Assembly (NCBI GenBank): GCA_019119205.1
Contig: DWXK01000048.1
Location: forward strand, 1-49,622
DNA length: 49,622 nucleotides
Reading direction: 5' to 3'
From: Candidatus Mediterraneibacter intestinavium
GTDB lineage: Bacteria; Bacillota; Clostridia; Lachnospirales; Lachnospiraceae
Below the pieces are notes generated by a model, which did not search any database, was not told the DNA's origin, and saw nothing but the letters and a program-made list of their open reading frames with translations. Made by a program: the position numbers and the translations under genes. Positions 28,105 through 41,912 of this stretch are shown piece after piece. How positions within the stretch are numbered: the first letter of the stretch is position 1; each line of letters begins with the position of its first letter.

Positions 28105-31100
28105 TCAGGCACCTTTTATGTTCATCACCAGCATCTGGAGCCGGTTCTCAATATTTGCAAAGCTGACATCCGGGTCATAGTCCAGAGGAAGGATCTGTGC
28201 ATCCGGATATTTCTCCTTCAATTTCTTTGATATTCCTCTTCCCACAACGTGGTTCGGCAGGCAGCCAAATGGCTGCAGGATGACAAAGGTGCGGCATCCC
28301 TTCTCTGCATGGTGCAGGATCTCTCCCGGAATCAGGATCCCCTCCCCTGCGTCAAAAGTACGCGGAATGATCGGGTCACTCTTCTCAGCAAGCTCTTCGA
28401 TCCTCCCTGCACGCTCATACAGCGGATGCGACGCAGCGATCCGGTCCGTCAGCTCATGGGCCATGTCAAAAGCCATGTCTGCCGTATGAAACCAGACCTT
28501 CTTTGCAAGCGGACGGTTTAAATGATACTCCTTGATCTGGCTGTCCTGGTAAAAATACGTCTTCTGTATCACGTCCGTCATCCTTGCTTCAATGATCTCG
28601 AATCCATTTTTTTCAAGATATTTCTCAATATCATGATTCGCCCCCGGATGGAAATTAAGCAGGTATTCTCCTACGATCAGCACCTGGGGCCTGCGTTTTG
28701 ATCTGTCGTATGGAATCTCTTTCATGATCTCTATCGCTTTCTTAAATCCGCTTTTTGCCCCCCGGATGCCGGATCTTTGAAGTCCGTTTATCACTTCATC
28801 CATCGCGCGGTCAAAAGCCCGGTCTGCGCTACCTTTTTCCAGTTCATATGGACGTATCTTCCGGAGCAGTTCCTCAAGCACATCGATCATAGGGAGCCCG
28901 AATGCAATACGCATGGAAGACACTATGTTCATGTGGAATCCGGGATGGATATTGTGGTGATCTACATCATCATTTGTCAGGATCGGGACATTTTTATAAC
29001 CTGCGTCGTCCAGTGCTTTCCTGAGGAGCGCACTGTAATGGGTCAGACGGCAGTCGCCTACATATTTTGCCATGGCGACTGCTGTATTCTCTGTATCATA
29101 TTTGCCGCTGTCCAATGCCGCCAGGATCTCTCCGATCACGATCTGAGCAGGGAAACAGATATCATTATGTACATAACGTTTCCCCATCTTAACCGCTTCT
29201 TCGCGTCCCAGTTCAAGGGGGACCGTACGGATCCCCTGAGTGGCAAATGCTGCAGCCATCAGACGGCTGAACGCATGAGATGTGTTTGGGACCAGCACCG
29301 TCTTTGTTTTTCGGTCTGCTTTTTCAAATTTGACCAGATACGGATCCTGCAGGGCATGTACTTCCCGCTTCCTTCCCTGCTCTCTTCTCATGATGACTGT
29401 CTCCAGGAAAGAACGGACACGAATGCGCAGCGGTCCCTGGATATCGCTTTCATCCACTTTCAGGACCAGCGGGGTTTTGCCTGATATCTCGCCCATCAGA
29501 CGTACGATCTCATCCGAAAGGTAGGCGTCATGCCCACAGCCGAAACTTACGATCTGGACATATTCCAGACTGTCTTTCTGTGCCGCCATGATGGCAGAGG
29601 AAAGCATCCTCGCGTGAAAATTGTTCACAACATCCAGCCGGCTCATACTCAGATCCTCTTCCTCGGTACCCGGAAGGGAATCTGCAGTCAGGACCGGGAT
29701 CCCCATCCCTGTAAAGATCTCCGGAAGTTCGTGGTTGACCAGGGTGTCATTCTGATAGGGTCTGGAAGCGAGCACCACTGCAAATTTTCCGGACGTTTCC
29801 ACCTGCTTTAAGACTTCTTCCCCCTTTTTCTTCAGATCCGTCCGAAACAGTTCCTGAGCCTGGTTTCCCGCCCGTATCGCCTGTTTTGTCTCCTCCGCAG
29901 AGATCCGGAATGTCTTTTCCATATATTCTGTGAGCTGGCGTTCCTGGTCTTCTGATGTATACCAATGGAAAAGAGGGGCGTCGAAAGGGATCCCCCACAT
30001 ACTCTCAGGATTGTCGGAATTTTTGATGACCAGCGGATATCCTTTGACCACAGCGCACATGGACTGGCTGGTCTCCTCCGTGTTTTCCGATGGCACGGTC
30101 GTGACCGCCGGCATGAAGATCCGGTCCACTCCTTTCTCCGCCAGGTTGCGGAGATGTCCGTGTACCAGTTTTGCCGGGAAGCAGACCGTATCCGACGTCA
30201 CTGCGGAGAGTCCGCTCTCGTAAATCTTTCTGGTACTCGGATCTGAGATCTTCACGCTAAATCCCAGCGTCCGCAGGAAGGTCCTCCAGAACGGCATCGT
30301 CTCCCAGAATGCGAGCACGCGGGGGATCCCGATGGTCACATTCCTTTTGCAGGAGGGCTCCGGATGGGAATATTTCCTCAGCAGCAGTTTCTCCCTGACG
30401 CGGAACAGGTTCGGAACAGAATTGGCTTTCTGTACCGTGTCCTTCAGTTTCTTCCTGACCTCTGAATCCCCGGGATCTCCCAGTATCTCTCCCCGCTCGC
30501 AGCGGTTATTGGTGATCCAGGAATTTCCGTTTGAGAAGGTCAGTATCGTCCGCTTGCAATGGTTTGTACAGAACGGACAGGGGGCGTTCGCCTCCTGGCG
30601 GTATGAGAATCCGTCCAGTTCATCCAGTCCGATAAACGTCCGGCTCTCCGGGTCTTTCTGATACCGTTCTCTGGTGATCAGCGCGATCCCGACCGCACCC
30701 ATCAGCCCGGGATAAGGCGCCCGGATCACTTCTTTCCCGATATATTCCTCCAGCGCCCGAAGGACAGCGTCATTGGCAAACGTTCCACCCTGGACAACGA
30801 TCCTGTCCCCGAGTGAGTCCACGTTAGAGAGGCGGATCACCTTGGTGAACACATTCTCTATGATGGATCGGCACAGTCCTGCCATGATATCCTCTGCGCG
30901 TCTTCCGTTTCTCTGTTCTGTGATAATGCTGCTGTTCATAAATACCGTGCAGCGGCTTCCCAGAACAGCCGGATGCTTCGACGAAAACGCCGCGTCGGCG
31001 ATATCTTCCGCAGAGATATTCAGAGACGATGCAAAGTTCTCGAGGAAGGATCCGCAGCCTGAGGAACACGCTTCATTGACGAGGATATTCGTGATGATGC

Positions 31101-32484
31101 CGCGGTCCAGCCACATCGCCTTCATATCCTGACCGCCGATATCCAGGATGAATGTGGCATCCTCCACATATTTTCCGGCAGCCCGGGCATGTGCCACGGT
31201 CTCCACAGTATGGTATTCTGCCTGGAATGCTTTCGCAAAGAGCATTTCCCCATATCCTGTCGTCCCTGCTGCCAGGATATGCAGTTTTGCCCCTGCCCTG
31301 CGGTAGCGGTCCCTCATCTCGATCAGTGCGCGGCGTGCCACATACAGAGGTTCTCCTTCATTTGGCGCATAGAATGCCCACAGGATCTCCTCCTGATCGT
31401 CCATCAGCACGAATTTTGTCGTCGTGCTCCCGGAATCGATCCCCAGATATGCATAGACTTCCTCTCCCGCCTTCGGCTCTCTCCATTTCATGGCAGGCAT
31501 GGCATGTCTCTTTTCGAATGTTTCTTTTTCTTCCTGAGATGCGAAAAACGGCTTCACATCCCCTGTTGACCCGCCGGCATTTTTGAAATCTTCTCCGCGG
31601 AGCAGGTCCAAAAGTTCTGACGGAGAGGCTTTCCGGCTCTTCTCCCCGAACATGGCATCAAGGGAAACTGCTGCTCCGATCGCTACCATCAGTTCCGGAT
31701 GGGGCGGGATGAGGATCTCGTCCTCTGCGAGTTCCAGTCTTTCCGCAAACACACGGATCAGTGTGGGATTGAATGTCAGAGGACCGCCCTCAAACGCAAC
31801 CGGCTTCCTGATCTCAAGCCCCTGCGCCAGACCGCCGATCGTCTGTTTTGCGATGGCATGAAAAGCAGACAGGGCGATATCTGCTTTCGCCACTCCCTGG
31901 TTCAGGAGCGGCTGGATATCTGTCTTCGCATACACTCCACACCGCCCGGAGATATCGTAAACGCAGGTTCCTTTCGAAGCCATCGTGTCAAACTCCCGGA
32001 CCGGGATCTTCAGTACAGAGGCGACCTCATCGACAAAGGCGCCTGTCCCGCCCGCGCAGCTTCCGTTCATGCGCATATCCGCCACTCCCAGTGCGCCGGT
32101 GGAGGGATTCTTCTGGAAGAAGATCATCTTCGCATCCTGGCCGCCAAGCTCGATCGCGCTGCCGACAGATTCATACCTGTCCTTCAGCGCAGCGGCATTT
32201 GCCGCGACTTCCTGGACGAACGGCAGGTCCAGCTTCTCCGCGATCGGCTTCGAGCCGGATCCGGTCAGTCCGAACCGGAACTGTGCACCCGGAAATTCTT
32301 TCTCCAGCTGCTCCATTATGTATATGACGCTCTTTACCTGGTCGGCATGATGCCTCCTGTAGTCAGAATATATGACGGTTCCGTCTTCCGGATCGAGAAC
32401 TACGATCTTTGTCGTAGTGGAACCGATATCGATCCCGGCTGTAAGTGTTTGTCCCGATAAATTTTTCTCTGTTCTCTTCATCAT
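28105..32484 (-). CDS. Giant fused 2-hydroxyacyl-CoA dehydratase activase/dehydratase-like protein
   Basis: This 1459-residue protein has two BadF/BadG/HgdC-type ATPase domains. The first starts GIDIGSTTTKIVVLD near residue 17 and the second GIDSGSTTTKFVLMD near 350. Each has its own cluster-loop cysteine: CAGGTGAFVDE in the first, CSSGCGSFLENF in the second. A CPFCTNHCKR cysteine motif follows near 645. Next comes a DUF2229-like and HgdB-like dehydratase part (TIGIPRVLAFWETMPFWRTF; RYVHNDICFPAQIVIGE). By family, activase domains use ATP and a shared [4Fe-4S] cluster to inject an electron into a dehydratase. The substrate here is unknown. It is monocistronic between hairpins. No confident promoter was found in its AT-rich upstream region. 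Confidence 0.9.
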   Translation of the reverse strand: MMKRTEKNLSGQTLTAGIDIGSTTTKIVVLDPEDGTVIYSDYRRHHADQVKSVIYIMEQLEKEFPGAQFRFGLTGSGSKPIAEKLDLPFVQEVAANAAALKDRYESVGSAIELGGQDAKMIFFQKNPSTGALGVADMRMNGSCAGGTGAFVDEVASVLKIPVREFDTMASKGTCVYDISGRCGVYAKTDIQPLLNQGVAKADIALSAFHAIAKQTIGGLAQGLEIRKPVAFEGGPLTFNPTLIRVFAERLELAEDEILIPPHPELMVAIGAAVSLDAMFGEKSRKASPSELLDLLRGEDFKNAGGSTGDVKPFFASQEEKETFEKRHAMPAMKWREPKAGEEVYAYLGIDSGSTTTKFVLMDDQEEILWAFYAPNEGEPLYVARRALIEMRDRYRRAGAKLHILAAGTTGYGEMLFAKAFQAEYHTVETVAHARAAGKYVEDATFILDIGGQDMKAMWLDRGIITNILVNEACSSGCGSFLENFASSLNISAEDIADAAFSSKHPAVLGSRCTVFMNSSIITEQRNGRRAEDIMAGLCRSIIENVFTKVIRLSNVDSLGDRIVVQGGTFANDAVLRALEEYIGKEVIRAPYPGLMGAVGIALITRERYQKDPESRTFIGLDELDGFSYRQEANAPCPFCTNHCKRTILTFSNGNSWITNNRCERGEILGDPGDSEVRKKLKDTVQKANSVPNLFRVREKLLLRKYSHPEPSCKRNVTIGIPRVLAFWETMPFWRTFLRTLGFSVKISDPSTRKIYESGLSAVTSDTVCFPAKLVHGHLRNLAEKGVDRIFMPAVTTVPSENTEETSQSMCAVVKGYPLVIKNSDNPESMWGIPFDAPLFHWYTSEDQERQLTEYMEKTFRISAEETKQAIRAGNQAQELFRTDLKKKGEEVLKQVETSGKFAVVLASRPYQNDTLVNHELPEIFTGMGIPVLTADSLPGTEEEDLSMSRLDVVNNFHARMLSSAIMAAQKDSLEYVQIVSFGCGHDAYLSDEIVRLMGEISGKTPLVLKVDESDIQGPLRIRVRSFLETVIMRREQGRKREVHALQDPYLVKFEKADRKTKTVLVPNTSHAFSRLMAAAFATQGIRTVPLELGREEAVKMGKRYVHNDICFPAQIVIGEILAALDSGKYDTENTAVAMAKYVGDCRLTHYSALLRKALDDAGYKNVPILTNDDVDHHNIHPGFHMNIVSSMRIAFGLPMIDVLEELLRKIRPYELEKGSADRAFDRAMDEVINGLQRSGIRGAKSGFKKAIEIMKEIPYDRSKRRPQVLIVGEYLLNFHPGANHDIEKYLEKNGFEIIEARMTDVIQKTYFYQDSQIKEYHLNRPLAKKVWFHTADMAFDMAHELTDRIAASHPLYERAGRIEELAEKSDPIIPRTFDAGEGILIPGEILHHAEKGCRTFVILQPFGCLPNHVVGRGISKKLKEKYPDAQILPLDYDPDVSFANIENRLQMLVMNIKGA

Positions 32485-32707: not shown

Positions 32708-32749
32708 AAAAGGTGCCGTGTACTTTTGAAAAAGTACACGGCACCTTTT
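32708..32749 (-). terminator. Terminator after the Nik-type transporter operon
   Basis: A perfect 20-bp inverted repeat (32708-32727 and 32730-32749, core GGTGCCGTGTAC) has only two bases between its arms. CAGACA/TGTCTG (32694-32699 and 32758-32763) closes an outer stem. It lies 20 nt past the stop of the last ABC gene at 32770. A TTTT tract follows on either strand. Confidence 0.8.
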
Positions 32750-32769
32750 AAAAGCATTGTCTGAATTTT

Positions 32770-33375
32770 TCACGGAAGTTCCACGATTCTGGTACACAGC
32801 CTCTCCATCAGCGCCTCGTTATGGCTCACGATAAGAAGCCCCAGGTTCCTCTTCTCCGCCTCTGCCAGAAGGAAATCCCAGATCTGTGCCTGTGTCACAA
32901 GATCCAGCATGGCCGAGATCTCATCGCAGAGGAGAAAACTTGTCCCCTTCCTGAGAGCCCTGGCGAGACAGAACCTCTGCAGTTCACCGCCGGAGAGTTC
33001 CGACGGAAACCGATCCATCCATCCTTCTTCAATATGAAGTTTCTCCGTCAGTTCCGGATCGATCCTTCCCGCCTCTTCCAGGGTATCTCTCAGTCTGAGA
33101 AGCGGATCCACCACAGTCTCCGGATGCTGCCACACCATCTGTACCGGACAGGCGCCTTTCTGTTCTCTCAGCGGCATGCCGTCCAGAAGTATCTCTCCCT
33201 TCTGAGGCTTCTCATATCCGGCCAGCAGCCGGCAGAGAGTTGTCTTTCCCCGGCCGCTCGGGGCTTTCAGCCCCACTCTCTCCCCGGATCCCACTGTGAT
33301 GCTGAAGTGTTCAATGACAGGAGTCTTCCGTCTCCCGGGATAATAAAAGGTGATGTCTCTCGCCTCCAGGATCAT
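32770..33375 (-). CDS. ABC transporter ATP-binding protein, NikE/OppF type
   Basis: The protein has 201 residues from the ATG at 33375, which overlaps the previous stop (ATGA). The frame is open further up but without family character. It has Walker A (APSGRGKTT), signature LSGGELQRF and Walker B (LLCDEISAMLD), then the switch His in IVSHNEA. It is short for a peptide-type ATPase because it lacks the C-terminal oligopeptide extension, as NikE-like subunits often do. It pairs with the adjacent NikD-like ATPase to power one importer. Confidence 0.88.
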   Translation of the reverse strand: MILEARDITFYYPGRRKTPVIEHFSITVGSGERVGLKAPSGRGKTTLCRLLAGYEKPQKGEILLDGMPLREQKGACPVQMVWQHPETVVDPLLRLRDTLEEAGRIDPELTEKLHIEEGWMDRFPSELSGGELQRFCLARALRKGTSFLLCDEISAMLDLVTQAQIWDFLLAEAEKRNLGLLIVSHNEALMERLCTRIVELP

Positions 33376-34325
33376 ACTGATTCCTCCTTTTCCCAGTCCC
33401 CGTGCGGATGCAGGCATCTCACCCTTCCGCCCCGGAATTCTCTGAGCCGGATCTCCCCGGCCTCTCTGCACTCCGGAAGACAGTCCGGACACTGTCCGGC
33501 AAAAGGGCATCCGGCAGGAACTGCCCCAGGATAAGGCTGGGCTCCCGGAATCGATTCAAAACCGTGTTCCGGCATTGCCCGCCAGAGAGCCTTTGTAAAC
33601 GGGTGTCGAAGCCGGTCCGGTTCCTTAAAATCTTCCGCGGAAGCCTCCTCGATCGTCTCCCCCGCATAAAAGACCGCCACCCGGTCCGCAACAGTCAGCG
33701 CCAGCTCCAGGTCATGTGTGATAAAGAGGACTCCCGCCCCCTCGTCCGCCAGTTCCCGGAAGTGCCCCAGGATCCGCTCTGCCGCCCGGGCATCCAGCCC
33801 CGGCGTAGGTTCATCCGCGATGATCAGCCTGGGGTTCTCTGCCACTGCGGATGCGATCAACACCCGGCGCGCCATCCCTCCGGAGAGTTCAAAGGGATAC
33901 ATCTCTTCCGTCTCCGCCCCCAGCCCGTATCGTTCCAGCGCCCGGCGGATCCGGCTGTGCGCTTTTTCGCTTCGGTCTCCTTTTCGCAGCTGGTCCCCCA
34001 CTTTCATCAGCGGATCCAGATAGGTAACCCCCTGGGGGATCAGCGCGATCTCCTTACCCCGGAGTTTTTTCGAGCGCCCGGGAGTCAGCGTCTCCCCCGC
34101 GTAACGGATCGTCCCTTCCATATGGCTGTTGTATGGAAGGATCCCCAGGATCCCGTGTGCAAGGAGGCTTTTCCCGGATCCGCTCGCCCCCACTACGGCA
34201 ACGATCTGTCCTGCTTCCACCGACAGGGACAGATCCCGGATGACCGGAAGGGTCCGTCTGCGGATCCCCCGTTCATATTGTGTAAAAAATACAGACATAT
34301 TCCTGATCTCTAATATCGGTTCCAA
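33372..34325 (-). CDS. ABC transporter ATP-binding protein, NikD/OppD type
   Basis: The protein has about 317 residues, with Walker A (GASGSGKS), Q-loop (LIPQGVTYLDP), signature ELSGGMARRVLIA and Walker B (LIIADEPTPGLD). The oligopeptide C-terminal extension holds a cysteine group (CPFAGQCPDCLPEC...RCLHP) that is common in this family. A GTG at 34334 is possible, but it sits inside the GGAGGTG ribosome site. The TTG at 34325, 8 nt after GGAGG, is the better start. Last gene but one of the lar-nik operon. Confidence 0.88.
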   Translation of the reverse strand: MEPILEIRNMSVFFTQYERGIRRRTLPVIRDLSLSVEAGQIVAVVGASGSGKSLLAHGILGILPYNSHMEGTIRYAGETLTPGRSKKLRGKEIALIPQGVTYLDPLMKVGDQLRKGDRSEKAHSRIRRALERYGLGAETEEMYPFELSGGMARRVLIASAVAENPRLIIADEPTPGLDARAAERILGHFRELADEGAGVLFITHDLELALTVADRVAVFYAGETIEEASAEDFKEPDRLRHPFTKALWRAMPEHGFESIPGAQPYPGAVPAGCPFAGQCPDCLPECREAGEIRLREFRGGRVRCLHPHGDWEKEESV

Positions 34326-34420
34326 TTCTGCCACCTCCGAATCCTTCTATCTATATGTACCTGCCGGTTTCCATGTCATGATCACGAATAGAAGACCGCA
34401 GAGCCACGGCTGCATCCTTC

Positions 34421-35326
34421 CTATTCATGGACACTTGCCGGATCCAAAAGCAGCCTTATCCTTTCTCCCAGAAGCGCGAACAGGATCACGGTCAGTACCA
34501 GAGCAAGCCCCGGGAACAGGGCGAGCCACCATCTGCCCGTCGTCAGGTACTGCATGCTCTCAGACAGGATCACACCGATCGCCGGCTGTTCCGAAGAAAG
34601 TCCGAACCCCAGAAATGTCACGCTCGCCTCATGCAGGATCGCATGTGGAAACAGCAGGATCAGCCCGGTCAGGAACTGGGGCAGAAGATGGGGGATCATA
34701 TGGCGCCTCACGTTCTGAAACTTTGAGACGCCCAGCTTCTCCGCCACAAGGATGTAAGGCGCCTGGCGAAGCTGGATCACCTCGCCGCGGATCACTCTGG
34801 CAAGGGAACACCAGTGGCTTAACGCCACGCCTGCCACCACGCCTGTGAACCCTCTGCCGCAGGCGATGGAGATCAGCATGACAAGAAGGATATGCGGGAT
34901 CCCCATCACCAGGTCGATACACCATGAGATCACCGCATCCGCCTTCCTGCCCAGCACCGCAGCTGCAGTCCCCGCCAGAAGTGCGATGACTGCGCTCACT
35001 GCCGCGGTAAGGACCCCGATGCGGATGCTCAGGGACAGTCCAGCAAGGGTCCGGGCGAGCATGTCCCGTCCCATCCAGTCCGTCCCGAACAGGTGTCCCG
35101 GTCCCGGAGCCAGATTGGTCCGGGTGAAATCTGTCTCTGTCGCCCGTCCCTCCAGCAGGATCCCTGCTGCCGTCACCGCCGCAAGGATCAGGACTGCCGC
35201 AGCCAGAAAAAGGAGCGTGCTCTTCCGCCGGTTGGATTCCTTTCCGTATGGGTTCTCTGCCTTTCTGTCCGGTCTTCCCTTCCTCACATCCGGCTGCATT
35301 TTCTGTGTATTTCCAAAATGTCTCAT
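34421..35326 (-). CDS. ABC transporter permease, NikC/OppC type
   Basis: This 301-residue inner-membrane permease has about six helices. The NikC-type loop GHLFGTDWMGRDMLARTLAG lies ahead of the transport domain. The EAA coupling loop reads AEKLGVSKFQNVRRHMIPHLLP. The long basic N-terminal tail (about 35 residues) is unusual. It overlaps the upstream permease gene by 4 bp and lies 95 bp before the ATPase gene, with no terminator seen. Confidence 0.9.
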   Translation of the reverse strand: MRHFGNTQKMQPDVRKGRPDRKAENPYGKESNRRKSTLLFLAAAVLILAAVTAAGILLEGRATETDFTRTNLAPGPGHLFGTDWMGRDMLARTLAGLSLSIRIGVLTAAVSAVIALLAGTAAAVLGRKADAVISWCIDLVMGIPHILLVMLISIACGRGFTGVVAGVALSHWCSLARVIRGEVIQLRQAPYILVAEKLGVSKFQNVRRHMIPHLLPQFLTGLILLFPHAILHEASVTFLGFGLSSEQPAIGVILSESMQYLTTGRWWLALFPGLALVLTVILFALLGERIRLLLDPASVHE

Positions 35327-36315
35327 CCCCGCGCTGCCCTCCTTCTTATCTTCGGGTCCACAACGCCGTAGAGCAGGTCCGCGATCAGATTACCCGTGAA
35401 AACAATGGCTGAGGTGATCACCGTGATCCCCAGGAGAAGGGGAAGGTCGCTGCCCAGCCCTGCATCCACTGCCGCCTGTCCCAGTCCCGGGTATGAAAAT
35501 ACCTGTTCTACCAGGACAGAACCGCCGATGATCTCACTGACCGAGGCGAACTGCAGCGTGATGGCGGGAAGAGATACATTCCGAAGCCCGTGACGCAGGA
35601 TGATCGAGCCTTCTGATTCTCCTCTGGCGCGCGCAAAAAGGACATAGTCCGACTCCAGGACGTCCACCATCTTCTCCCTGGTATGCAGGGCGATGTTCGC
35701 CACTCCGGTGATGCTCAAGGTCAGCGCCGGAAGGACCGCATGCCGCAGCCGGTCTGAAAGAGTCACCGCATCAGCCGACATTCCCGCCGGAACGGAAAGC
35801 CCGACAGGGAGCCAGCCCAGCCAGACAGAAAAGACAAGGAGCAGGAGGATCGCCAGCCAGAATGCCGGGGTAGAAGAAATGAGAAGACAGTATCCCCGGA
35901 TCAGTTTATCCGGCAGCTTTCCCCGGAACGCCCCTGCAGCCACGCCGAGGATGAGCCCCAGGGTCCCGGAGATCACCCAGGCTGCGGCAAGGAGCAGGAC
36001 GGAGTTGGCGAGGCGCTGCCCGATCACTTCAAGCACAGGCTGCCGGTAGAGCAGGGATGTGCCGAGATCTCCGTGGAGGACATCCCCAAGCCAGCCCAGA
36101 TACCTCTGTAGAGGCGGAGTGTCCACTCCCCAGTATGTTTCCAGCCGCGCCACCTGCTCCGGGCTCATAGAGCCCAGCGCCACCTGTCCCACATTGGTCT
36201 GAAGGGGATCGAGCGGTGAGGCGCTCATCAGCAAAAATGTGACCAGACTGACTCCCAGCAGGAGCAGCGCCATCCGGACCAGTTTTTTCCCCGCAAACTG
36301 AAGACGGTGTTTCAA
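35323..36315 (-). CDS. ABC transporter permease, NikB/OppB type
   Basis: This 330-residue permease starts at a TTG (36315) that overlaps the NikA stop (TTGA), 10 nt after AAAGGA. It has the family's N-terminal helix, a periplasmic-side segment (VARLETYWGVDTPPLQRYLGW) and the EAA loop ARARGESEGSIILRHGLRN. GGSVLVEQVFSYPGLG follows. By context it carries nickel or a nickel complex. Confidence 0.9.
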   Translation of the reverse strand: MKHRLQFAGKKLVRMALLLLGVSLVTFLLMSASPLDPLQTNVGQVALGSMSPEQVARLETYWGVDTPPLQRYLGWLGDVLHGDLGTSLLYRQPVLEVIGQRLANSVLLLAAAWVISGTLGLILGVAAGAFRGKLPDKLIRGYCLLISSTPAFWLAILLLLVFSVWLGWLPVGLSVPAGMSADAVTLSDRLRHAVLPALTLSITGVANIALHTREKMVDVLESDYVLFARARGESEGSIILRHGLRNVSLPAITLQFASVSEIIGGSVLVEQVFSYPGLGQAAVDAGLGSDLPLLLGITVITSAIVFTGNLIADLLYGVVDPKIRRRAARG

Positions 36316-38003
36316 AGTTCATCATTCCTTTCTGTCCATGACCACTGGTCTACGTTGTTGACCAGGGACCAGCCGTGCCCATGGGGATGGATCTTCTGGT
36401 CCGCCACCTGCAGCCCGTCTCTCACCCAGTAAAGATGGTCGATATTGACCAGCCATACCCACGGGATATCCCCCTCCTGGGTTACGCCTGTGGTCCCGTC
36501 CCACTGAGCCAGTTTCCACAGCTCGTAGGACTCTTCCAGACTGCTGCTCGCAAGCGCCCGGTCCATATACTCATCCACCGTCGGATTTGAGTAGGGAGAA
36601 TATTCCGCAGAATCCGTCCCTTCTATCGTATGATAGATATTATACAGTTCCATCGGGGTGTGGGCTCCCCATCCCCAGAGAAGAGGATCTGAGAGCGCTC
36701 GGTCATAGGCGGTATCCCAGCCCACGCCTTCCATGGTGCAGGAAATTCCCAGTTCTTCCATCTGGGCGGCGAAATCTGCAGTCAGTGCCTGACGAACGGA
36801 ATCACCGACAGCATACAGCAGGTTCAGTTCCGCTTTCACTCCGTCCTTTTCCCGGACGCCGTCCTCTCCCAGGGTCCATCCTGCCTGGTCAAGTAGGGCT
36901 GCCGCCCCTTCCGGATCATACTCCACCTCGGACGCCTCGTTGTACCAGGGGAGCTGGTCGCAGACACTGTAAGCAGGGCTTCCGTATCCGTTCAGCACAT
37001 TGTCGATCATCTCCTGACGGTCCACGCCGATGTTGATCGCGCGGCGCACCAGCACGTCTGAGGTAAGATCATTTCCCACGGTCCTTCCTTCTTCATCTGT
37101 TCCGGCTGATACCGCCGGAAGGTTGAAGCCCCGGTTATCCACACTTTCATACGCCGCCAGGCTGTATCCTTCCACCTCCTGATCGGAATAGGTGGCGGAA
37201 GTATACGCCACATCCACCTGTCCTGCCTGAGCAGCGAGGAAAGCGGCGTCTTCCTCCATGAAAAGGATGGTCACCTGCTTCATCTTCGGCGCCTCCCCGT
37301 AATAATCCGGGTTTGCTTCCAGGATGACCTGCTGCCTCCGGTCCCACTGCTTCAGGATATATCGCCCGGAACCGATGGGATTGGAACCGTACGTGGCGCT
37401 GTCATACGCATGCTCCGGGATGATCCCCACGATCGCCATGGTGTAAGCCCAGATAGAGAAGGGGCGGGTCATATGGAATATCACGGTCGTGTCGTCCTGC
37501 GCTTCCGCATAGTCCAGCATGGTGAGATCATTGACCGAACTTGTCTCTTTCACCGTATTGTATGTAAACGCCACATCCTCCGCTGTCAACGGCTCCCCGT
37601 CGGTGAACGATACATCATCACGTATCGTCACCGTCCAGGTCAGCCCGTCCTCACTAACATTGTGATCCGTAGCGAGATCATAGCCGATGGTCAGGTCCGT
37701 ATCCGTCACGGTCAGCGTGCTCTGGATCAGAGGCTCATGGACATGTTCCCCGGCTCCCCAGCCATAGGCAGGGTCAAAGCCCGCCTCAGGCTCGGAGTTT
37801 GGATCCATGGCAATGATCACAGAATCACTCTCCGCACCGGAACCCGCTGCATTTCCGGCATTCGTCTCATTTCCTGACGTCTGCCCGCCCGAAGCATTCC
37901 CGCTCCGGCATCCGGCAAGGAGTCCCAGCGCCAGGGCAGCGCTCAGAAGAACGGACGCCGCCTGCTTCATTTTCTTATTTCTCTTCCTCATCGTTTTCCT
38001 CAT
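36312..38003 (-). CDS. ABC transporter substrate-binding lipoprotein, NikA/OppA type
   Basis: This 563-residue SBP_bac_5 protein has a lipoprotein signal: basic start, hydrophobic stretch and lipobox LLAGC with Cys32 as the lipid site. The mature protein shows the family layout, for example DDVSFTDGEPLTAEDVAFTY. The C-terminal IHPHGHGWSLVNN holds two His, and AEHVHEP lies near the start of the mature part. These could take part in metal binding, but this is only a guess. The start overlaps larC by 4 bp, and coupling to larC argues for nickel as the cargo. A second start four codons on is possible. Confidence 0.85.
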   Translation of the reverse strand: MRKTMRKRNKKMKQAASVLLSAALALGLLAGCRSGNASGGQTSGNETNAGNAAGSGAESDSVIIAMDPNSEPEAGFDPAYGWGAGEHVHEPLIQSTLTVTDTDLTIGYDLATDHNVSEDGLTWTVTIRDDVSFTDGEPLTAEDVAFTYNTVKETSSVNDLTMLDYAEAQDDTTVIFHMTRPFSIWAYTMAIVGIIPEHAYDSATYGSNPIGSGRYILKQWDRRQQVILEANPDYYGEAPKMKQVTILFMEEDAAFLAAQAGQVDVAYTSATYSDQEVEGYSLAAYESVDNRGFNLPAVSAGTDEEGRTVGNDLTSDVLVRRAINIGVDRQEMIDNVLNGYGSPAYSVCDQLPWYNEASEVEYDPEGAAALLDQAGWTLGEDGVREKDGVKAELNLLYAVGDSVRQALTADFAAQMEELGISCTMEGVGWDTAYDRALSDPLLWGWGAHTPMELYNIYHTIEGTDSAEYSPYSNPTVDEYMDRALASSSLEESYELWKLAQWDGTTGVTQEGDIPWVWLVNIDHLYWVRDGLQVADQKIHPHGHGWSLVNNVDQWSWTERNDEL

Positions 38004-39370
38004 TCTCCCGGCTTTTCTCTTCTGTTTTCCACAGACTGCGCCCTGTTTTCCTCATATGTGTGGAGCGCGTCCTCAAAAACTCTTCCATAAGGGATCTGGT
38101 TCTTTTTCGCCAGCTCTGCCACATCCTCAAACTCTGGCTTGCTGTGGCGGATGCCAAATCCCTCTGCCGTCTTGATGCGCACCTCGCCCCAGCGGGTCTG
38201 CACCTTCTCTATACCTGGCTTGAGAAAATACTTGCCGCAGCGGTGCACTCTCAGCCCGTTGGTCGTAGTCTCGGCAATGATCTGTCTTGCAAGCGCTGCC
38301 TCATCTTCAGGTCTGCACAGTACTGTCAGCACATGACCGGGGCGTCCTTTCTTCATGTTCCCCGCCAGAGTGTACACATCCAGCGCTCCGTGCTCTAAAA
38401 GCCGGGAGCATGCATGGGCGAGGGCTTCCGGCTGCATATCGTCAATGTTGCACACCAGCTCCGTGATCTCCCCGTTTTCTCTCTCCCGGGTATCCCCGAG
38501 AAAAACGCGGATGCAGTTCGCCTGCTCAAATGTTTTTGTCCCGATACCGATCCCGGTCTTCTCCGTAGTCATCATTGGCATAGGACCGAAAGAATCTGCG
38601 AAATGCTTCAGCAGCGCCGCTCCGGTGGGCGTGCACAGTTCTCCCCGGATCTCCCCTCCGTAAAAGGGGATCCCTTCCAGCAGATTTGCCGTCGCAGGCG
38701 CAGGTACGGGCATGACGCCATGGGCGCAGCGGACCGTTCCGCTCCCCACATGGACCGGAGATGCACAGATGCGCTCTGCGCCGAGAAGATACATGGCATA
38801 ACAGACTCCGGTGACATCCGCCACCGCATCCAGCGCCCCCACCTCATGGAAATGAACATCTGAGACCGGACATCCGTGGGCTTTCGCCTCCGCCTGTGCG
38901 ATGTCATCGTAGACAGCGCGGGCATGGCGCTTCACTTCCTCCGGAAGGTCCAGTCCGCCGATCAGCTCTGCGATGTATCCCGGCGCAGCATGATGATGGT
39001 GCCCGTGGGGATGTCCCTCGCCATGTCCATGATGATGTTCTTCCCTATGTCCGTGATGGTGCTCCGCACTGTGTATCTCTTCATGCCCGTGGTGATGCGC
39101 CGCACTGTGTTCCTCCCCATGTCCATGGTGATGCGCTGTGCCGTGTCCTTCCTCCGGCTCCTTCTCTTCCTCGCCGTACACTTTCACAGCCATATGAGTC
39201 CCGGCGATCCCGCAGGTCTTCCCGGGCTGCGCCTCGATCTTTACCCCGGGCAGCCCCAGAGCGTTCATTTTATCGAGAAAGCCTTTCTTATCCTCCAGCA
39301 GCTCATACAGGGCGGACATGAGCATGTCCCCCGCCGCGCCCATATTGCACTCGATATATAATGTCCTCAT
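38000..39370 (-). CDS. larC: Nickel insertase LarC (NPN cofactor synthesis)
   Basis: LarC inserts nickel into the pincer nucleotide in a CTP-dependent step, completing the cofactor of lactate racemase-type enzymes. This 456-residue form is one continuous frame. It begins LYIECNMGAAGDMLMSALYE, typical of the family. A His-rich insert follows at about residues 75-130, with some 25 His in about 53 residues built of HHHGHxEExHSA-like units. The rest matches LarC: DVHFHEVGALDAVADVTG, LCTPTGAALL and a C-terminal part with ELVCNIDDMQPEALAHA. The His-rich stretch probably stores or buffers nickel. It overlaps larB and nikA by 4 bp each. Confidence 0.94.
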   Translation of the reverse strand: MRTLYIECNMGAAGDMLMSALYELLEDKKGFLDKMNALGLPGVKIEAQPGKTCGIAGTHMAVKVYGEEEKEPEEGHGTAHHHGHGEEHSAAHHHGHEEIHSAEHHHGHREEHHHGHGEGHPHGHHHHAAPGYIAELIGGLDLPEEVKRHARAVYDDIAQAEAKAHGCPVSDVHFHEVGALDAVADVTGVCYAMYLLGAERICASPVHVGSGTVRCAHGVMPVPAPATANLLEGIPFYGGEIRGELCTPTGAALLKHFADSFGPMPMMTTEKTGIGIGTKTFEQANCIRVFLGDTRERENGEITELVCNIDDMQPEALAHACSRLLEHGALDVYTLAGNMKKGRPGHVLTVLCRPEDEAALARQIIAETTTNGLRVHRCGKYFLKPGIEKVQTRWGEVRIKTAEGFGIRHSKPEFEDVAELAKKNQIPYGRVFEDALHTYEENRAQSVENRREKPGE

Positions 39371-40137
39371 ATCTGTTCCTCCTTTATCCCTTCCATCTGA
39401 TTGATCATACTGGCGAGATACCCCGCCCCGAATCCGTTATCAATGTTCACAACGCTGCACCCGGAAGCACAGGAATTCAGCATGGACAGGAGCGCCGACA
39501 AGCCTCCAAAGCTGGCTCCGTACCCCACGCTGGTGGGGACCGCGATCACCGGACAGTCCACGAGCCCTCCGATGACCGAGGCGAGAGCTCCTTCCATCCC
39601 TGCCACTGCCACAACGCACCGGGCGCTCATCAGGGGATCCAGGTTGGAGAGCAGCCGGTGGAGCCCCGCCACTCCCACGTCATAGAGACGTGTCACTTTG
39701 TTCCCCATGGCTTCCGCTGTCAGGGCTGCCTCCTCCGCCACCGGCATGTCGCTGGTGCCTCCGGTCGCCACGACGATGTTCCCTCTTTTCGGGCGCTCCC
39801 AGGGAAATGCCACCAGAAGCTTCGGCAGCGGGTGGTACTCGGCGGGAACATTTTCAGAGAGAAGTTCTGCCGCTTCCGGGCTGATCCTGGTCACCAGGAT
39901 ATTGCGGCATCCCCGCTCTCCCATTGCGGTGACGATCCCCAGGATCTGTTCCGGTGTTTTTCCCGCTCCGTATATCACTTCCGCTGCTCCCTGACGCACG
40001 CTCCTGTGGAGATCGATCTTGGCATAGTCCAGATCTTCAAACGGCGCCTCCTTTAAGTCCAAAAGCGCTTCCTCCGGCGAGGTGGTCCCGTCTGCCACAC
40101 TACGCAAAAGCTTTAAAATATCATGTTTATTGTCCAT
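39367..40137 (-). CDS. larB: NPN cofactor synthase LarB (P2CMN synthase)
   Basis: LarB carboxylates and hydrolyses nicotinic acid adenine dinucleotide to give pyridinium-3,5-biscarboxylic acid mononucleotide, the first step of NPN synthesis. The 256-residue protein has a short N-terminal helical part (LLRSVADGTTSPEEAL). Its AIR carboxylase-like (PurE-like) C-terminal half reads IVVATGGTSDMPVAEEAA, VAGMEGALASVIGGL and PTSVGYGASFGG. The ATG at 40137 follows GGGAG. It overlaps larC by 4 bp. Confidence 0.95.
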   Translation of the reverse strand: MDNKHDILKLLRSVADGTTSPEEALLDLKEAPFEDLDYAKIDLHRSVRQGAAEVIYGAGKTPEQILGIVTAMGERGCRNILVTRISPEAAELLSENVPAEYHPLPKLLVAFPWERPKRGNIVVATGGTSDMPVAEEAALTAEAMGNKVTRLYDVGVAGLHRLLSNLDPLMSARCVVAVAGMEGALASVIGGLVDCPVIAVPTSVGYGASFGGLSALLSMLNSCASGCSVVNIDNGFGAGYLASMINQMEGIKEEQI

Positions 40138-40244
40138 TTTTTCTCCCTTCTCTCAAGACGAACGCTCAGACGCTGCGAAGATCCGCCGCAGAGATCTGCT
40201 CGCACATGGCGGCATCCATGCTGTAACGCCCGTTATCTAAATAT

Positions 40245-41000
40245 TCACGCTGACGGCTTTCTGTCCTCCAGATCCAGCAGGACCGCCGGAAACAATGGCG
40301 TAAGCAGCGAACAGATCTCCCGCCTTTTTTCTACCGCCTGTGCCACTTGTCCTTCTGTAAACTGAAGGCGCGCCCCCTCAGGCAGGAGCCGCACCCTGAA
40401 ATCGGTAAATCCCATTTCCTCCAGCAGTATCTCAGCCTTCTCTACCCGTTTCAGGTCTTCCTCCGTGATCTTCATCCCGGTGGGGATCCGGGTGGCAAGA
40501 CAGGCGTAAGCCGGTTTATCCCAGGTAAATATCCCTGCCGCCTTTGACATTCTCCGTACTTCCGCTTTTGTGATCCCGCATTCCCGCAGGGGGGAGCGGA
40601 CTTCCAGTTCTTTGAGGGCGCGCATCCCGGGGCGGTCCCCCGCGTCATCCGAGACGTTGGTCCCATCTAAGAGAAGCGTATGCCCGTCACTGCGCACTTT
40701 TTCCCAGATCTTTGTAAACAGCGCTCTCTTACAGTAATAACATCTCTCCGGTCCGTTTGCTGCTGCTTCCGGCACCGCGAGGATATCCTCCCGGATCACC
40801 GTCATAGGGATCCCCAGCTCCTCTGTCAGCCGTTTCGCATCCTGAAGTTCAAACTCCGGCTGAAACGCCGTCTTTACATAGTAGGCATGTACGTCACACC
40901 CGTATTTCTTCGCCGCCCAGAGCAGGAACGCCGAGTCCGTCCCTCCGGAAAAAGCGACCGCAGCTCTCGGGGCAGCATAGAAAAATCCTTCCAGTGTCAT
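40245..41000 (-). CDS. larE: NPN cofactor sulfur transferase LarE, C terminus possibly lost by frameshift
   Basis: LarE is a PP-loop enzyme that activates the biscarboxylic intermediate with ATP and installs two sulfurs. The 251-residue frame starts with the PP-loop VAFSGGTDSAFLLWAA. It then has ERCYYCKRALF, the SPLRECGITKAEVR segment and PAYACLATRIPTG, whose Cys lines up with the functional Cys region of the family. The frame ends at TGA 40245-40247 after LLDLEDRKPSA. The +1 frame continues right there as EYLDNGRYSMDAAMCEQIS to a stop at 40166-40168. The joined length would be about 277 residues, near the usual LarE size, and would leave only 28 bp to larB. This suggests an indel near 40260-40280. 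Confidence 0.88.
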   Translation of the reverse strand: MTLEGFFYAAPRAAVAFSGGTDSAFLLWAAKKYGCDVHAYYVKTAFQPEFELQDAKRLTEELGIPMTVIREDILAVPEAAANGPERCYYCKRALFTKIWEKVRSDGHTLLLDGTNVSDDAGDRPGMRALKELEVRSPLRECGITKAEVRRMSKAAGIFTWDKPAYACLATRIPTGMKITEEDLKRVEKAEILLEEMGFTDFRVRLLPEGARLQFTEGQVAQAVEKRREICSLLTPLFPAVLLDLEDRKPSA

Positions 41001-41075
41001 ATTTTATCTCTTCCTTTCCGCAGACAGTTCCCGGATCTCTGTTCACATCTGTCAAGAACATGGACAAAACAGAAT

Positions 41076-41123
41076 AAAAAAAGATACCCGCCTTCTCCTG
41101 AAAGCAGATACCTTCCTGGTATC
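41076..41123 (-). promoter_or_regulatory. Alternative-hairpin element with T7 tract before larE
   Basis: On the minus strand, GATACC (41118-41123) can pair with GGTATC at 41107-41112 (5-nt loop). It can also pair with the second GGTATC at 41083-41088, which runs into TTTTTTTATT. The two pairings exclude each other, an attenuator-like layout. The terminator stem is only 6 bp, so this is tentative. Confidence 0.4.
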
Positions 41124-41226
41124 GATCGATCCTGTCTGTATTATCATCATATATTTTATTTATCGGCTTTCTGATATGCCCCTGCCTATATCCGCCGGCA
41201 CCCCTGGTATTGCGTCCGTCAAATGG

Positions 41227-41391
41227 ACAGACTGACCGCGCAGGATGCTTTTTGTCCCGCAAGTTCGGGAAAGCAGGCTGGCCGTCTGGCGCAGCTGTCT
41301 GTAAAACGGTGTGTTGAGTTCCTGTGTATTGAGTTCCTGTCCATGGCTTCTGCCATCTTCCCGGCTTCCTGCCGGCTGTTTATCCAGGACT
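41227..41391 (-). ncRNA. Hairpin-rich leader/candidate structured RNA between DUF3842 and larE
   Basis: No gene is seen at 41001-41394. On the minus strand the DUF3842-proximal part forms a closed multi-hairpin: CAGGACT (41385-41391) pairs, with one bulge, with AGTTCCTG (41333-41340). It encloses CCGGC/GCCGG (41361-41375) and ATGGC/GCCAT (41343-41356). A second domain is closed by ACAGAC/GTCTGT (41227-41232, 41297-41302) around TGCTTT/AAAGCA and CCCG/CGGG (41246-41275). A 15-bp tandem repeat (41311-41340, 14 of 15 identical) joins the two. No known riboswitch class is recognised. Confidence 0.45.
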
Positions 41392-41394
41392 TTT

Positions 41395-41838
41395 TTACAG
41401 GGACGTCACGCCGCTCTCACGGATCTGCGCCCGGTCCATGAGCGTTCCCAGCGCATCAACTGCATTCTGGACATTTCTGGACATGGATGAGTCCGAAACG
41501 CCCACGATGATATTGTCACAGAGATTGACCGGGATCAGGATCCGCTTTGCCCTGCTCTGTCCCACGGCAAGCGCCATTCCCGGCGTGATCTCACCCAGCA
41601 TGGAGTCCGCGATAACGATCCCCACCGGTCCCATGATCACATCCACTCTCCCGGAGGCGACTACGACCGAGTTCTCCCCTGTCGCCGCCTGGTCCGCGCC
41701 GGCACGCAGCATCGCTCCGGTTGCCAGGCTGTTGGTCCCTACCGCCAGCACTTCTGTCTGTGGATACCGTTCTTTTACCGCTGTAACAAGCTGACGTCCC
41801 AGACCTCCGCCCTGCCCGTCAATAATGAGTACCTTCAA
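41395..41838 (-). CDS. DUF3842 family protein, head of the lar-nik operon
   Basis: This is a 147-residue protein from a TTG start at 41838, 6 nt after a perfect GGAGGTGA. The frame is open further up, but the start fits the family N terminus (KVLIIDGQGGGLGRQL). That Gly-rich loop after a beta strand resembles a nucleotide-binding Rossmann motif. Further blocks are VLAVGTNSLATGAML, GPVGIVIADSMLGEITP and RILIPVNLC. The protein is soluble and has no assigned reaction. It has its own strong promoter and lies in line with larE, larB, larC and the importer. A role in nickel or NPN metabolism is therefore a reasonable guess from context only. Confidence 0.82.
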   Translation of the reverse strand: MKVLIIDGQGGGLGRQLVTAVKERYPQTEVLAVGTNSLATGAMLRAGADQAATGENSVVVASGRVDVIMGPVGIVIADSMLGEITPGMALAVGQSRAKRILIPVNLCDNIIVGVSDSSMSRNVQNAVDALGTLMDRAQIRESGVTSL

Positions 41839-41883
41839 GGGATCACCTCCGCCCTGTCTTTCTCTGTCTTTTACCACTTTACA

Positions 41884-41912
41884 AGTTTATAGAAAAGCAG
41901 GGTGGATGTCAA
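41884..41912 (-). promoter_or_regulatory. Promoter of DUF3842 and likely of the lar-nik operon
   Basis: On the minus strand, a perfect TTGACA (41907-41912), a 17-nt spacer and TAAACT (41884-41889). It sits right after the apbE stop, so the DUF3842-lar-nik block is separable from the apbE transcript. Confidence 0.75.

Follow-up and report, generated by a model that had tools for sequence, protein, structure and literature searches.

The lar locus of the window

The stretch of DNA analysed here (the window; 49,622 nucleotides from Candidatus Mediterraneibacter intestinavium) is a whole contig, DWXK01000048.1, of a 2.62-Mb genome that is 81.6% complete. From 41838 down to 32770 its minus strand carries a gene for the DUF3842 protein, the genes larE, larB and larC for biosynthesis of the nickel-pincer nucleotide (NPN), and a five-gene importer of the Opp/Nik type; between DUF3842 and larE, a gap of 394 bp that the earlier note on this DNA had passed over holds two copies of a tandem-hairpin RNA element, whose relation to DUF3842 is the subject of this work. 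In order of transcription, the features are as follows (R1 denotes a covariance model of the element).

41884..41912, minus strand: promoter-like TTGACA-17-TAAACT (10/12 matches), upstream of DUF3842
41395..41838, minus strand: DUF3842 gene, start TTG at 41838, alternative GTG at 41877; PF12953, 170 bits; structure model pLDDT 95
41342..41376, minus strand: RNA site 1, loops AGGAA and AGAA, from the loop scan; R1 34.9 bits, though among the sites from which R1 was built
41090..41123, minus strand: RNA site 2, loops AGGAA and AGGA, from the loop scan; R1 38.9 bits, though likewise an R1-building site
41078..41117, minus strand: intrinsic-terminator-like hairpin, 18 pairs then a T-run, between DUF3842 and larE
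40245..41000, minus strand: larE; TIGR00268, 231 bits (cut-off 150)
39367..40137, minus strand: larB; NF033503, 290 bits (cut-off 175)
38000..39370, minus strand: larC; TIGR00299 and NF052512, both over their cut-offs
36312..38003, minus strand: nikA-like substrate-binding lipoprotein; SBP_bac_5, 252 bits; TIGR02294, 161 bits (cut-off 393)
35323..36315, minus strand: nikB-like permease; BPD_transp_1; Opp4B/Opp2B/NikB models below cut-off
34421..35326, minus strand: nikC-like permease; BPD_transp_1; Opp4C/NikC models below cut-off
33372..34334, minus strand: nikD-like ATPase; ABC_tran and oligo_HPY; TIGR02770, 161 bits (cut-off 318.7)
32770..33375, minus strand: nikE-like ATPase, short (201 aa); ABC_tran; TIGR02769, 106 bits (cut-off 332.55)

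This one-strand arrangement had been proposed in an earlier note on the same DNA, and the gene calls bear it out, including exact 4-bp overlaps at larB/larC, larC/nikA, nikA/nikB, nikB/nikC and nikD/nikE; larE and larB are separated by 107 bp, and nikC and nikD by 86 bp. LarB, LarC and LarE, the NPN biosynthesis set, all exceed the cut-offs of their equivalog models in the profile search. The importer had been called a complete NikABCDE system: five Opp/Nik-type genes are indeed present, but none of the five proteins reaches its NikABCDE equivalog (NCBIfam) cut-off, so that nickel is assigned as substrate by context, and the importer may still transport it.

The earlier note also took the TTGACA to place DUF3842 first in the transcript. 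The hexamer is present at 41912, but because a strong terminator-like hairpin separates DUF3842 from larE, the statement holds only with read-through of that terminator. Promoter-like matches across the region occur at the level of shuffled sequence (5 found, 5.1 expected); by eye, three of ten relatives compared (L101, L103 and L104) likewise have a TTGACA and a −10-like sequence 5′ of DUF3842. The first of these, Mediterraneibacter glycyrrhizinilyticus, has the same gene order and a DUF3842 protein 96% identical to that of the window, the closest outside the window among the matches listed.

A tandem-hairpin RNA element downstream of DUF3842

Each copy of the element comprises a hairpin with an ANGAA pentaloop followed by one with an NGAA-type tetraloop, the loop centres lying about 20 nt apart. 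Site 1 folds into two plain hairpins as drawn (−16.1 kcal/mol, z −3.8), and hairpins with the loops AGGAA, AGAA and AGGA are common to relatives, the AGGA hairpin lying inside the terminator. In a census of all loops of 4–7 nt on stems of at least 6, the loops C-AGAA-G, C-UGAA-G, C-AGGAA-G and C-AUGAA-G were enriched about 100-fold within 450 nt 3′ of DUF3842 relative to the remainder of the loci. At least one such hairpin (stems of at least 5) lies downstream in 66 of 181 DUF3842 loci, against 1.84% of control windows, and at least two in 49 of 181, against 0.08% of 6210 control windows; the share is 53/80 among the named loci nearest the window protein and 12/100 in a wider sample. Upstream of DUF3842 these hairpins occur in 6 of 181 loci. 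Where a pentaloop is directly followed by a tetraloop, the loop centres are 17.5–21.5 nt apart in 33 of 38 pairs.

To avoid bias toward stems, pairs were also selected with loops and spacing as the sole criteria; this yielded 44 pairs in 37 of the 181 loci, compared with 0.26 expected, and both stems reached at least 4 in 33 of the 44 pairs near DUF3842 as against 3 of 17 elsewhere. An alignment of 42 sites, themselves picked for stems of at least 4, has 94.1% of its cells paired and contains 193 two-sided changes, with 11 of 12 pairs changing on both sides somewhere and a covariation of 0.914, compared with 0.127–0.213 when the structure is slid along the alignment. Conserved letters are nearly confined to the loops and their closing pairs, the stems and linker varying freely. 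No Rfam covariance model, that for the NiCo riboswitch included, matched the window at its gathering score; the DUF3842–larE gap searched at E ≤ 5 gave three sub-threshold chance matches only, and 15 motif-bearing sources gave only tRNAs. A known riboswitch was rejected on the grounds of this missing Rfam match. That the element is real is, in our assessment, close to certain.

Overlap with a terminator

Segment 41070–41117 folds as a terminator (−20.9 kcal/mol, z −5.5). The first hairpin of site 2, which competes with it, reaches −7.5, and in window folding the whole site-2 stretch likewise adopts the terminator rather than the first hairpin. The 3′ arm of that hairpin is common to both structures. 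This arrangement recurs: for 22 of the 47 sites, from 22 loci of which two are the same contig, the pentaloop hairpin has a 3′ arm able to pair past the tetraloop and so give a hairpin with a T-rich tail; as the folding was done without the 5′ arm, it indicates that a terminator can form, and is not proof that the terminator wins. With promoter-like sequence on its 5′ side and a terminator on its 3′ side, DUF3842 could be expressed while the downstream operon is off. On this evidence the element very probably acts as an attenuator.

The element is tied to DUF3842-positive genomes

Searched against the genome of the window, R1 recovered the two known sites as its only matches above noise. In a class sample of 342 genomes of Clostridia, the class to which the window belongs, 19 genomes carried a match at E ≤ 1e-4, and all 19, from 14 families, were DUF3842-positive (p = 1.7e-9); at E ≤ 1e-3 the DUF3842-positive share of matching genomes was 25/27, and at 1e-2 it was 37/43. 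Seven of the 19 strong genomes had contributed sites to the model; with contributing genomes removed the share was 12/12 at 1e-4 (p = 2e-6) and 18/20 at 1e-3 (p = 2e-7). Both DUF3842-negative exceptions at E ≤ 1e-3 sit inside reading frames; six DUF3842-negative genomes match at E ≤ 0.01, of which G060 and G083 were inspected and G128, G170, G219 and G224 left out. Of the 75 genomes with LarB and no DUF3842, 40 were searched, and they gave a single weak match (E 0.007). LarB itself is present in just 8 of the 19 strong-motif genomes. Among DUF3842 genomes that are also CooT-positive, 5 of 32 have a site at E ≤ 0.01; another 40 DUF3842 genomes yielded a site in 11 at E ≤ 0.01 and in 18 at 0.05, some of which overlap the class-sample matches.

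The same picture emerges within loci. The window and 80 named loci together contain 57 matches of at least 25 bits, 53 of them just downstream of DUF3842. While 35 of the 57 are R1-building sites or a copy of one, the 22 outside the building set comprise 18 just downstream of DUF3842, one upstream and three heading other operons. Taken together, these distributions make a functional tie between the RNA element and DUF3842 highly likely. At a Treponema locus (L169), sites at 6424–6458 and 6911–6946 flank DUF3842 ahead of CbiMQO-larB-larC-larE, and the system thus extends to Spirochaetes.

Targets away from DUF3842

Twenty places with sites away from DUF3842 were examined, with gene starts left unrefined. 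Sites head lar genes in L187 (larEBC-nik), L189 (larC), L195 and L196 (at 1 kb), and importers in L190 (Nik-like permease, 0.85 kb) and L201 (CbiMQO). A further seven (L186, L188, L192, L193, L194, L199 and L202) head an operon for an energy-coupling factor (ECF) S component and a kinase. The weak matches in L197, L198, L200, L203, L204 and L205 lie within or across open reading frames and were judged false, and L191 was left unclassed.

In 33 further genomes, drawn from named loci that have no strong local site, 19 gave a match at E ≤ 0.05, a few of which are perhaps weak DUF3842-adjacent sites. The 12 best of these head LarE-LarB (5), ECF-S/kinase (3), a NikA-like substrate-binding protein (2, one weak), CbiO-CbiO (1) and an unassigned gene (1, L217); no DUF3842 lies near any of the 12 in the 3 kb examined, which included 1.5 kb before each site. 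The element accordingly delineates a regulon for importing nickel and making NPN, with DUF3842 as its genomic companion.

The ECF-S/kinase operon is the commonest target away from DUF3842 (e.g. L186, L188, L194, L206, L213 and L214). In this operon the gene for the ECF S component comes first, and the next encodes a P-loop kinase resembling uridine kinase, whose N-terminal part has no match in Pfam; both proteins match general families only.

DUF3842 and nickel genes across genomes

In the class sample DUF3842 occurs in 124 genomes, LarB (over cut-off) in 141 and CooT in 39. DUF3842 and LarB occur together in 66 genomes, compared with 51.1 expected (p = 9e-4), and in seven of these 66 they lie within 10 kb of each other, always on the same strand; 58 of the 124 DUF3842 genomes have no larB over cut-off, and 75 of the 141 larB genomes have no DUF3842. 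Among the 80 named loci found nearest to the window protein, lar genes within 10 kb of DUF3842 are downstream on the same strand in 34, upstream in none and on the opposite strand in one, an arrangement that is not due to chance; the link to lar genes in Clostridia, whose frequency the earlier note had proposed counting, is thus above expectation. Other genes 3′ of DUF3842 in these 80 loci are NikABC-like (16), ECF-S/kinase (11), CbiM/Q (6) and BtuC/F-like (4).

The association with CooT is closer still: 32 genomes have both genes, where 14.1 would be expected (p = 6e-10), and the two adjoin on the same strand in 31 of these genomes, with domain matches 19–127 bp apart. Within six genes of DUF3842 at 101 loci, an ECF ATPase (29), CooT (28) and an ECF S component (19) are found most often, followed by CbiQ-like (12), SBP5 (12) and CbiM-like (11) proteins. 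The DUF3842 branch beside CooT also adjoins CbiMQO and CODH/ACS, and one acetogen-like branch lies within a CODH-CooC-ACS-CooT cluster. The tie of DUF3842 to nickel and NPN genes is therefore real, and wider than lar alone.

Several further arrangements were observed at these loci. In 11 of the 100 loci L001–L100, CbiM/CbiQ genes are found upstream of DUF3842 and on its strand (L052, L017 and L048 are CooT-DUF3842 examples), a nickel module that merits separate study. CooT-DUF3842 beside CODH/ACS is flanked in L071 (8747–9121 and 9789–10013) by His-rich or helical proteins that Pfam does not match; L098 (10700–13618) has a comparable His-rich stretch ahead of the ACS domains within a single reading frame, with the start taken as called. 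Downstream of DUF3842 in a divergent branch (L073, L089 and L093) come genes resembling nadD and yqeK, as judged by eye from L073 alone, which may connect this branch to the synthesis of pyridine nucleotides. One genome (G237) has two DUF3842 copies, of which one adjoins CooT and the other has an RNA site directly upstream (L019, L024).

The DUF3842 protein

The score of the window protein against PF12953 is far above the gathering cut-off of 28.5 bits, and its predicted structure is a single Rossmann-like domain; a fold of nucleotide-binding type, in line with the suggestion of the earlier note, is thus predicted. Conserved residues (D7, G10, G14, G34-N36, G54-E55, G82-E83 and P103) map near strand ends of the model. 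A sequence search for a solved relative gave a best E of 0.41, which is not significant, and the best Foldseek match, UbiX-like 1sbz (E 7e-5, TM 0.44, rmsd 7.7), was not used as a hint to function. No paper naming DUF3842 was found in a literature search. The hp gene of C. autoethanogenum was considered as a DUF3842 candidate on account of its CooT neighbourhood and deletion phenotype, and was rejected because PMC10230548 describes Hp as histidine-rich; Hp thus matches the His-rich neighbour seen at CooT loci rather than DUF3842, and we claim no DUF3842 phenotype from it.

Other features of the window and its relatives

LarC of the window has a long His-rich insert (38970–39150). Just 3′ of nikE, at 32710–32755, an extended and almost perfect inverted repeat that ends in a few Ts was noted by eye and is likely to be the transcript end; further downstream on the same strand (28105–32484) lies a gene for a 1459-aa protein with acyl-CoA dehydratase activase domains. 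LarA (PF09861) gave no match in the genome of the window at its 81.6% completeness, and was over cut-off in 9 of 24 motif or lar relatives. Nine of the ten nearest relatives searched (G375–G384) have no LarA match or marginal Lar_N matches only, despite their NPN synthesis genes.

Discussion

The operon, the RNA element and its covariation, the overlap with the terminator, the tie to DUF3842-positive genomes and the nickel-related targets elsewhere are all computed from the sequences. Since the element also heads other nickel-related blocks in DUF3842 genomes, DUF3842 is probably a regulator of these genes and not one of the enzymes they encode; the hairpins, moreover, lie mostly 3′ of its gene and rarely 5′, which places DUF3842 itself mostly outside control by the element, as would befit a regulator. 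We consider the chances evenly balanced that DUF3842 is the trans-acting sensor and regulator of a system that controls nickel import and NPN synthesis by attenuation, and its genomic linkage to the sites suggests, with similar confidence, that it may bind the RNA directly.

In the mechanism we propose, DUF3842 would be transcribed from its own promoter, after which the polymerase would copy the two tandem-hairpin sites. Naked RNA would fold into the terminator, leaving larEBC-nikABCDE off. The protein, probably a dimer or larger oligomer, would have its state set by nickel, or by a nickel- or pyridine-nucleotide ligand, in the Rossmann cleft; by gripping both loops of site 2 it would hold the first hairpin, keep the 3′ arm from the terminator and so permit read-through, and it would likewise act in trans wherever a site heads another operon. 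Both the identity of the ligand and the sign of control are what we infer here.

A regulatory role for DUF3842 has to be set against a number of observations. Most DUF3842 genomes have no site: 25 of the 124 carry one at E ≤ 1e-3 and 37 at 1e-2, and a search of 40 DUF3842 genomes with laxer filters (the 32 CooT-positive ones and eight more) found sites in 7 of the 40 at 0.01. R1 was built exclusively from sites 3′ of DUF3842, its E-values are rough owing to a short calibration, kinship was handled solely by counting families, and many of the searched genomes are fragmentary. The protein matches no family other than PF12953 in a Pfam scan at E ≤ 0.001, and it is not basic, with a net charge of −1 in the window and a mean of −0.8 across 56 motif-type proteins. 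A role in nickel physiology is unproven for the ECF-S/kinase operon, the commonest target away from DUF3842, and the site in L187 is not wholly unlinked from DUF3842, given that a 46-aa DUF3842-like remnant (1679–1816) lies just 5′ of it; an intact DUF3842 is on a different contig of that genome, and the other 19 stretches have no such remnant. Finally, the mini-ykkC precedent shows that small repetitive hairpins have misled toward protein binding.

That precedent is why a riboswitch is retained as a rival, in which the two loops would jointly bind nickel, NPN or a pyridine nucleotide and DUF3842 would make, store or handle the ligand. The terminator architecture speaks for this reading equally, and guanidine-II provides a precedent for tandem hairpins. 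Its precursor motif, mini-ykkC, had resembled a protein-binding RNA (PMC2864571). We nevertheless hold this reading to be rather unlikely: conservation is almost confined to loops and closing pairs, leaving stems and linker free; DUF3842 is mostly not under the element, unlike an enzyme of the regulon; and, with one weak match in the 40 larB-positive genomes that have no DUF3842, a riboswitch alone leaves strong sites confined to DUF3842 genomes unexplained. It is unlikely, too, that a different RNA-binding protein uses the sites and that DUF3842 belongs to the same system as a nickel-handling protein, e.g. a metallochaperone or insertase. The clustering of DUF3842 with CooT, CbiMQO, CODH, CooC and ACS even where no site is present is in keeping with such a role, as is its lack of basic character, but DUF3842 lies directly 5′ of the sites at most loci that have both, and ANTAR, the sole other family checked against the motif genomes, is absent from 9 of the 19.

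The earlier note had suggested that DUF3842 might be a missing NPN-handling or NPN-sensing part. An NPN-handling enzyme or NPN carrier, with the operon a plain biosynthetic unit, would fit the shared operon with lar, the Rossmann-like fold and the enrichment of larB in DUF3842 genomes, but we regard it as very improbable, as close to half of the DUF3842 genomes have no larB and more than half of the larB genomes no DUF3842, as larB is found in just 8 of the 19 strong-motif genomes, and as DUF3842 is not among the genes of the operon that the RNA controls. The sensing suggestion survives in part: NPN is a possible ligand for the proposed regulator, but the 58 DUF3842 genomes with no larB over cut-off led us to reject it as a universal one.

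If DUF3842 is the regulator proposed here, it adds another tandem-hairpin attenuation system alongside ANTAR and gives a role to a domain of unknown function present in 124 of the 342 Clostridia genomes sampled. The RNA element offers a directly testable regulon, within whose physiology the ECF-S/kinase operon probably falls. A narrow literature search found no account of nickel-uptake control by RNA-binding attenuation or antitermination of this kind. More tentatively, and at somewhat less than even chances, DUF3842 may found a new family of lone-Rossmann, ligand-sensing, RNA-binding attenuation proteins that recognise ANGAA then NGAA about 20 nt apart, read nickel or NPN status and control nickel import, NPN synthesis and the ECF-S/kinase pathway, both in anaerobic members of the Bacillota and in at least one Treponema.

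Comparison with known systems

The lar operon of Lactiplantibacillus plantarum has an ECF-type importer, regulation by LarR, and LarA in the cluster. The window shares with it LarB, LarC and LarE beside a nickel importer, but differs in having an Opp/Nik-type importer, an RNA attenuator and DUF3842, with no LarA found in its genome. The other DUF3842 branch resembles the CooT/CooC context of CODH/ACS, where DUF3842 adjoins CooT, CooC, CODH, ACS and CbiMQO; there the RNA site is found in only the five of 32 genomes noted above.

The mini-ykkC motif later proved to be a guanidine riboswitch (guanidine-II). Its tandem small hairpins with conserved loops, which looked suggestive of protein binding, resemble the present element, but the loops are ACGR (PMC2864571) and not ANGAA/NGAA. 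ANTAR dimers bind two small terminator-overlapping hairpins with hexanucleotide loops that have A at position 1 and G at position 4 (PMC3369931). The likeness to the ANTAR systems EutV, NasR and AmiR extends to a pair of neighbouring hairpins whose loop residues are conserved and of which one overlaps an intrinsic terminator, ahead of several operons, but the loops here are an ANGAA pentaloop and an NGAA-type or AGGA tetraloop, not A1/G4 hexaloops. DUF3842 matches no ANTAR family in the Pfam scan, and although the genome of the window has one ANTAR protein, these proteins were rejected as binders of the sites because they are missing from nine of the 19 genomes with the motif. The ANTAR and mini-ykkC loop patterns were thus both set aside as a misfit, and TwoAYGGAY by its name and a table line alone.

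In the hut operon of Bacillus, the gene for the small protein HutP comes first and is followed by an RNA site with a terminator and then the controlled genes, regulation depending on both a metal and a ligand. DUF3842 differs in having no match to the HutP family (Pfam scan, E ≤ 0.001), in its RNA and in having targets also away from its own gene, but its order of DUF3842, RNA site, terminator and operon is that of the HutP system.

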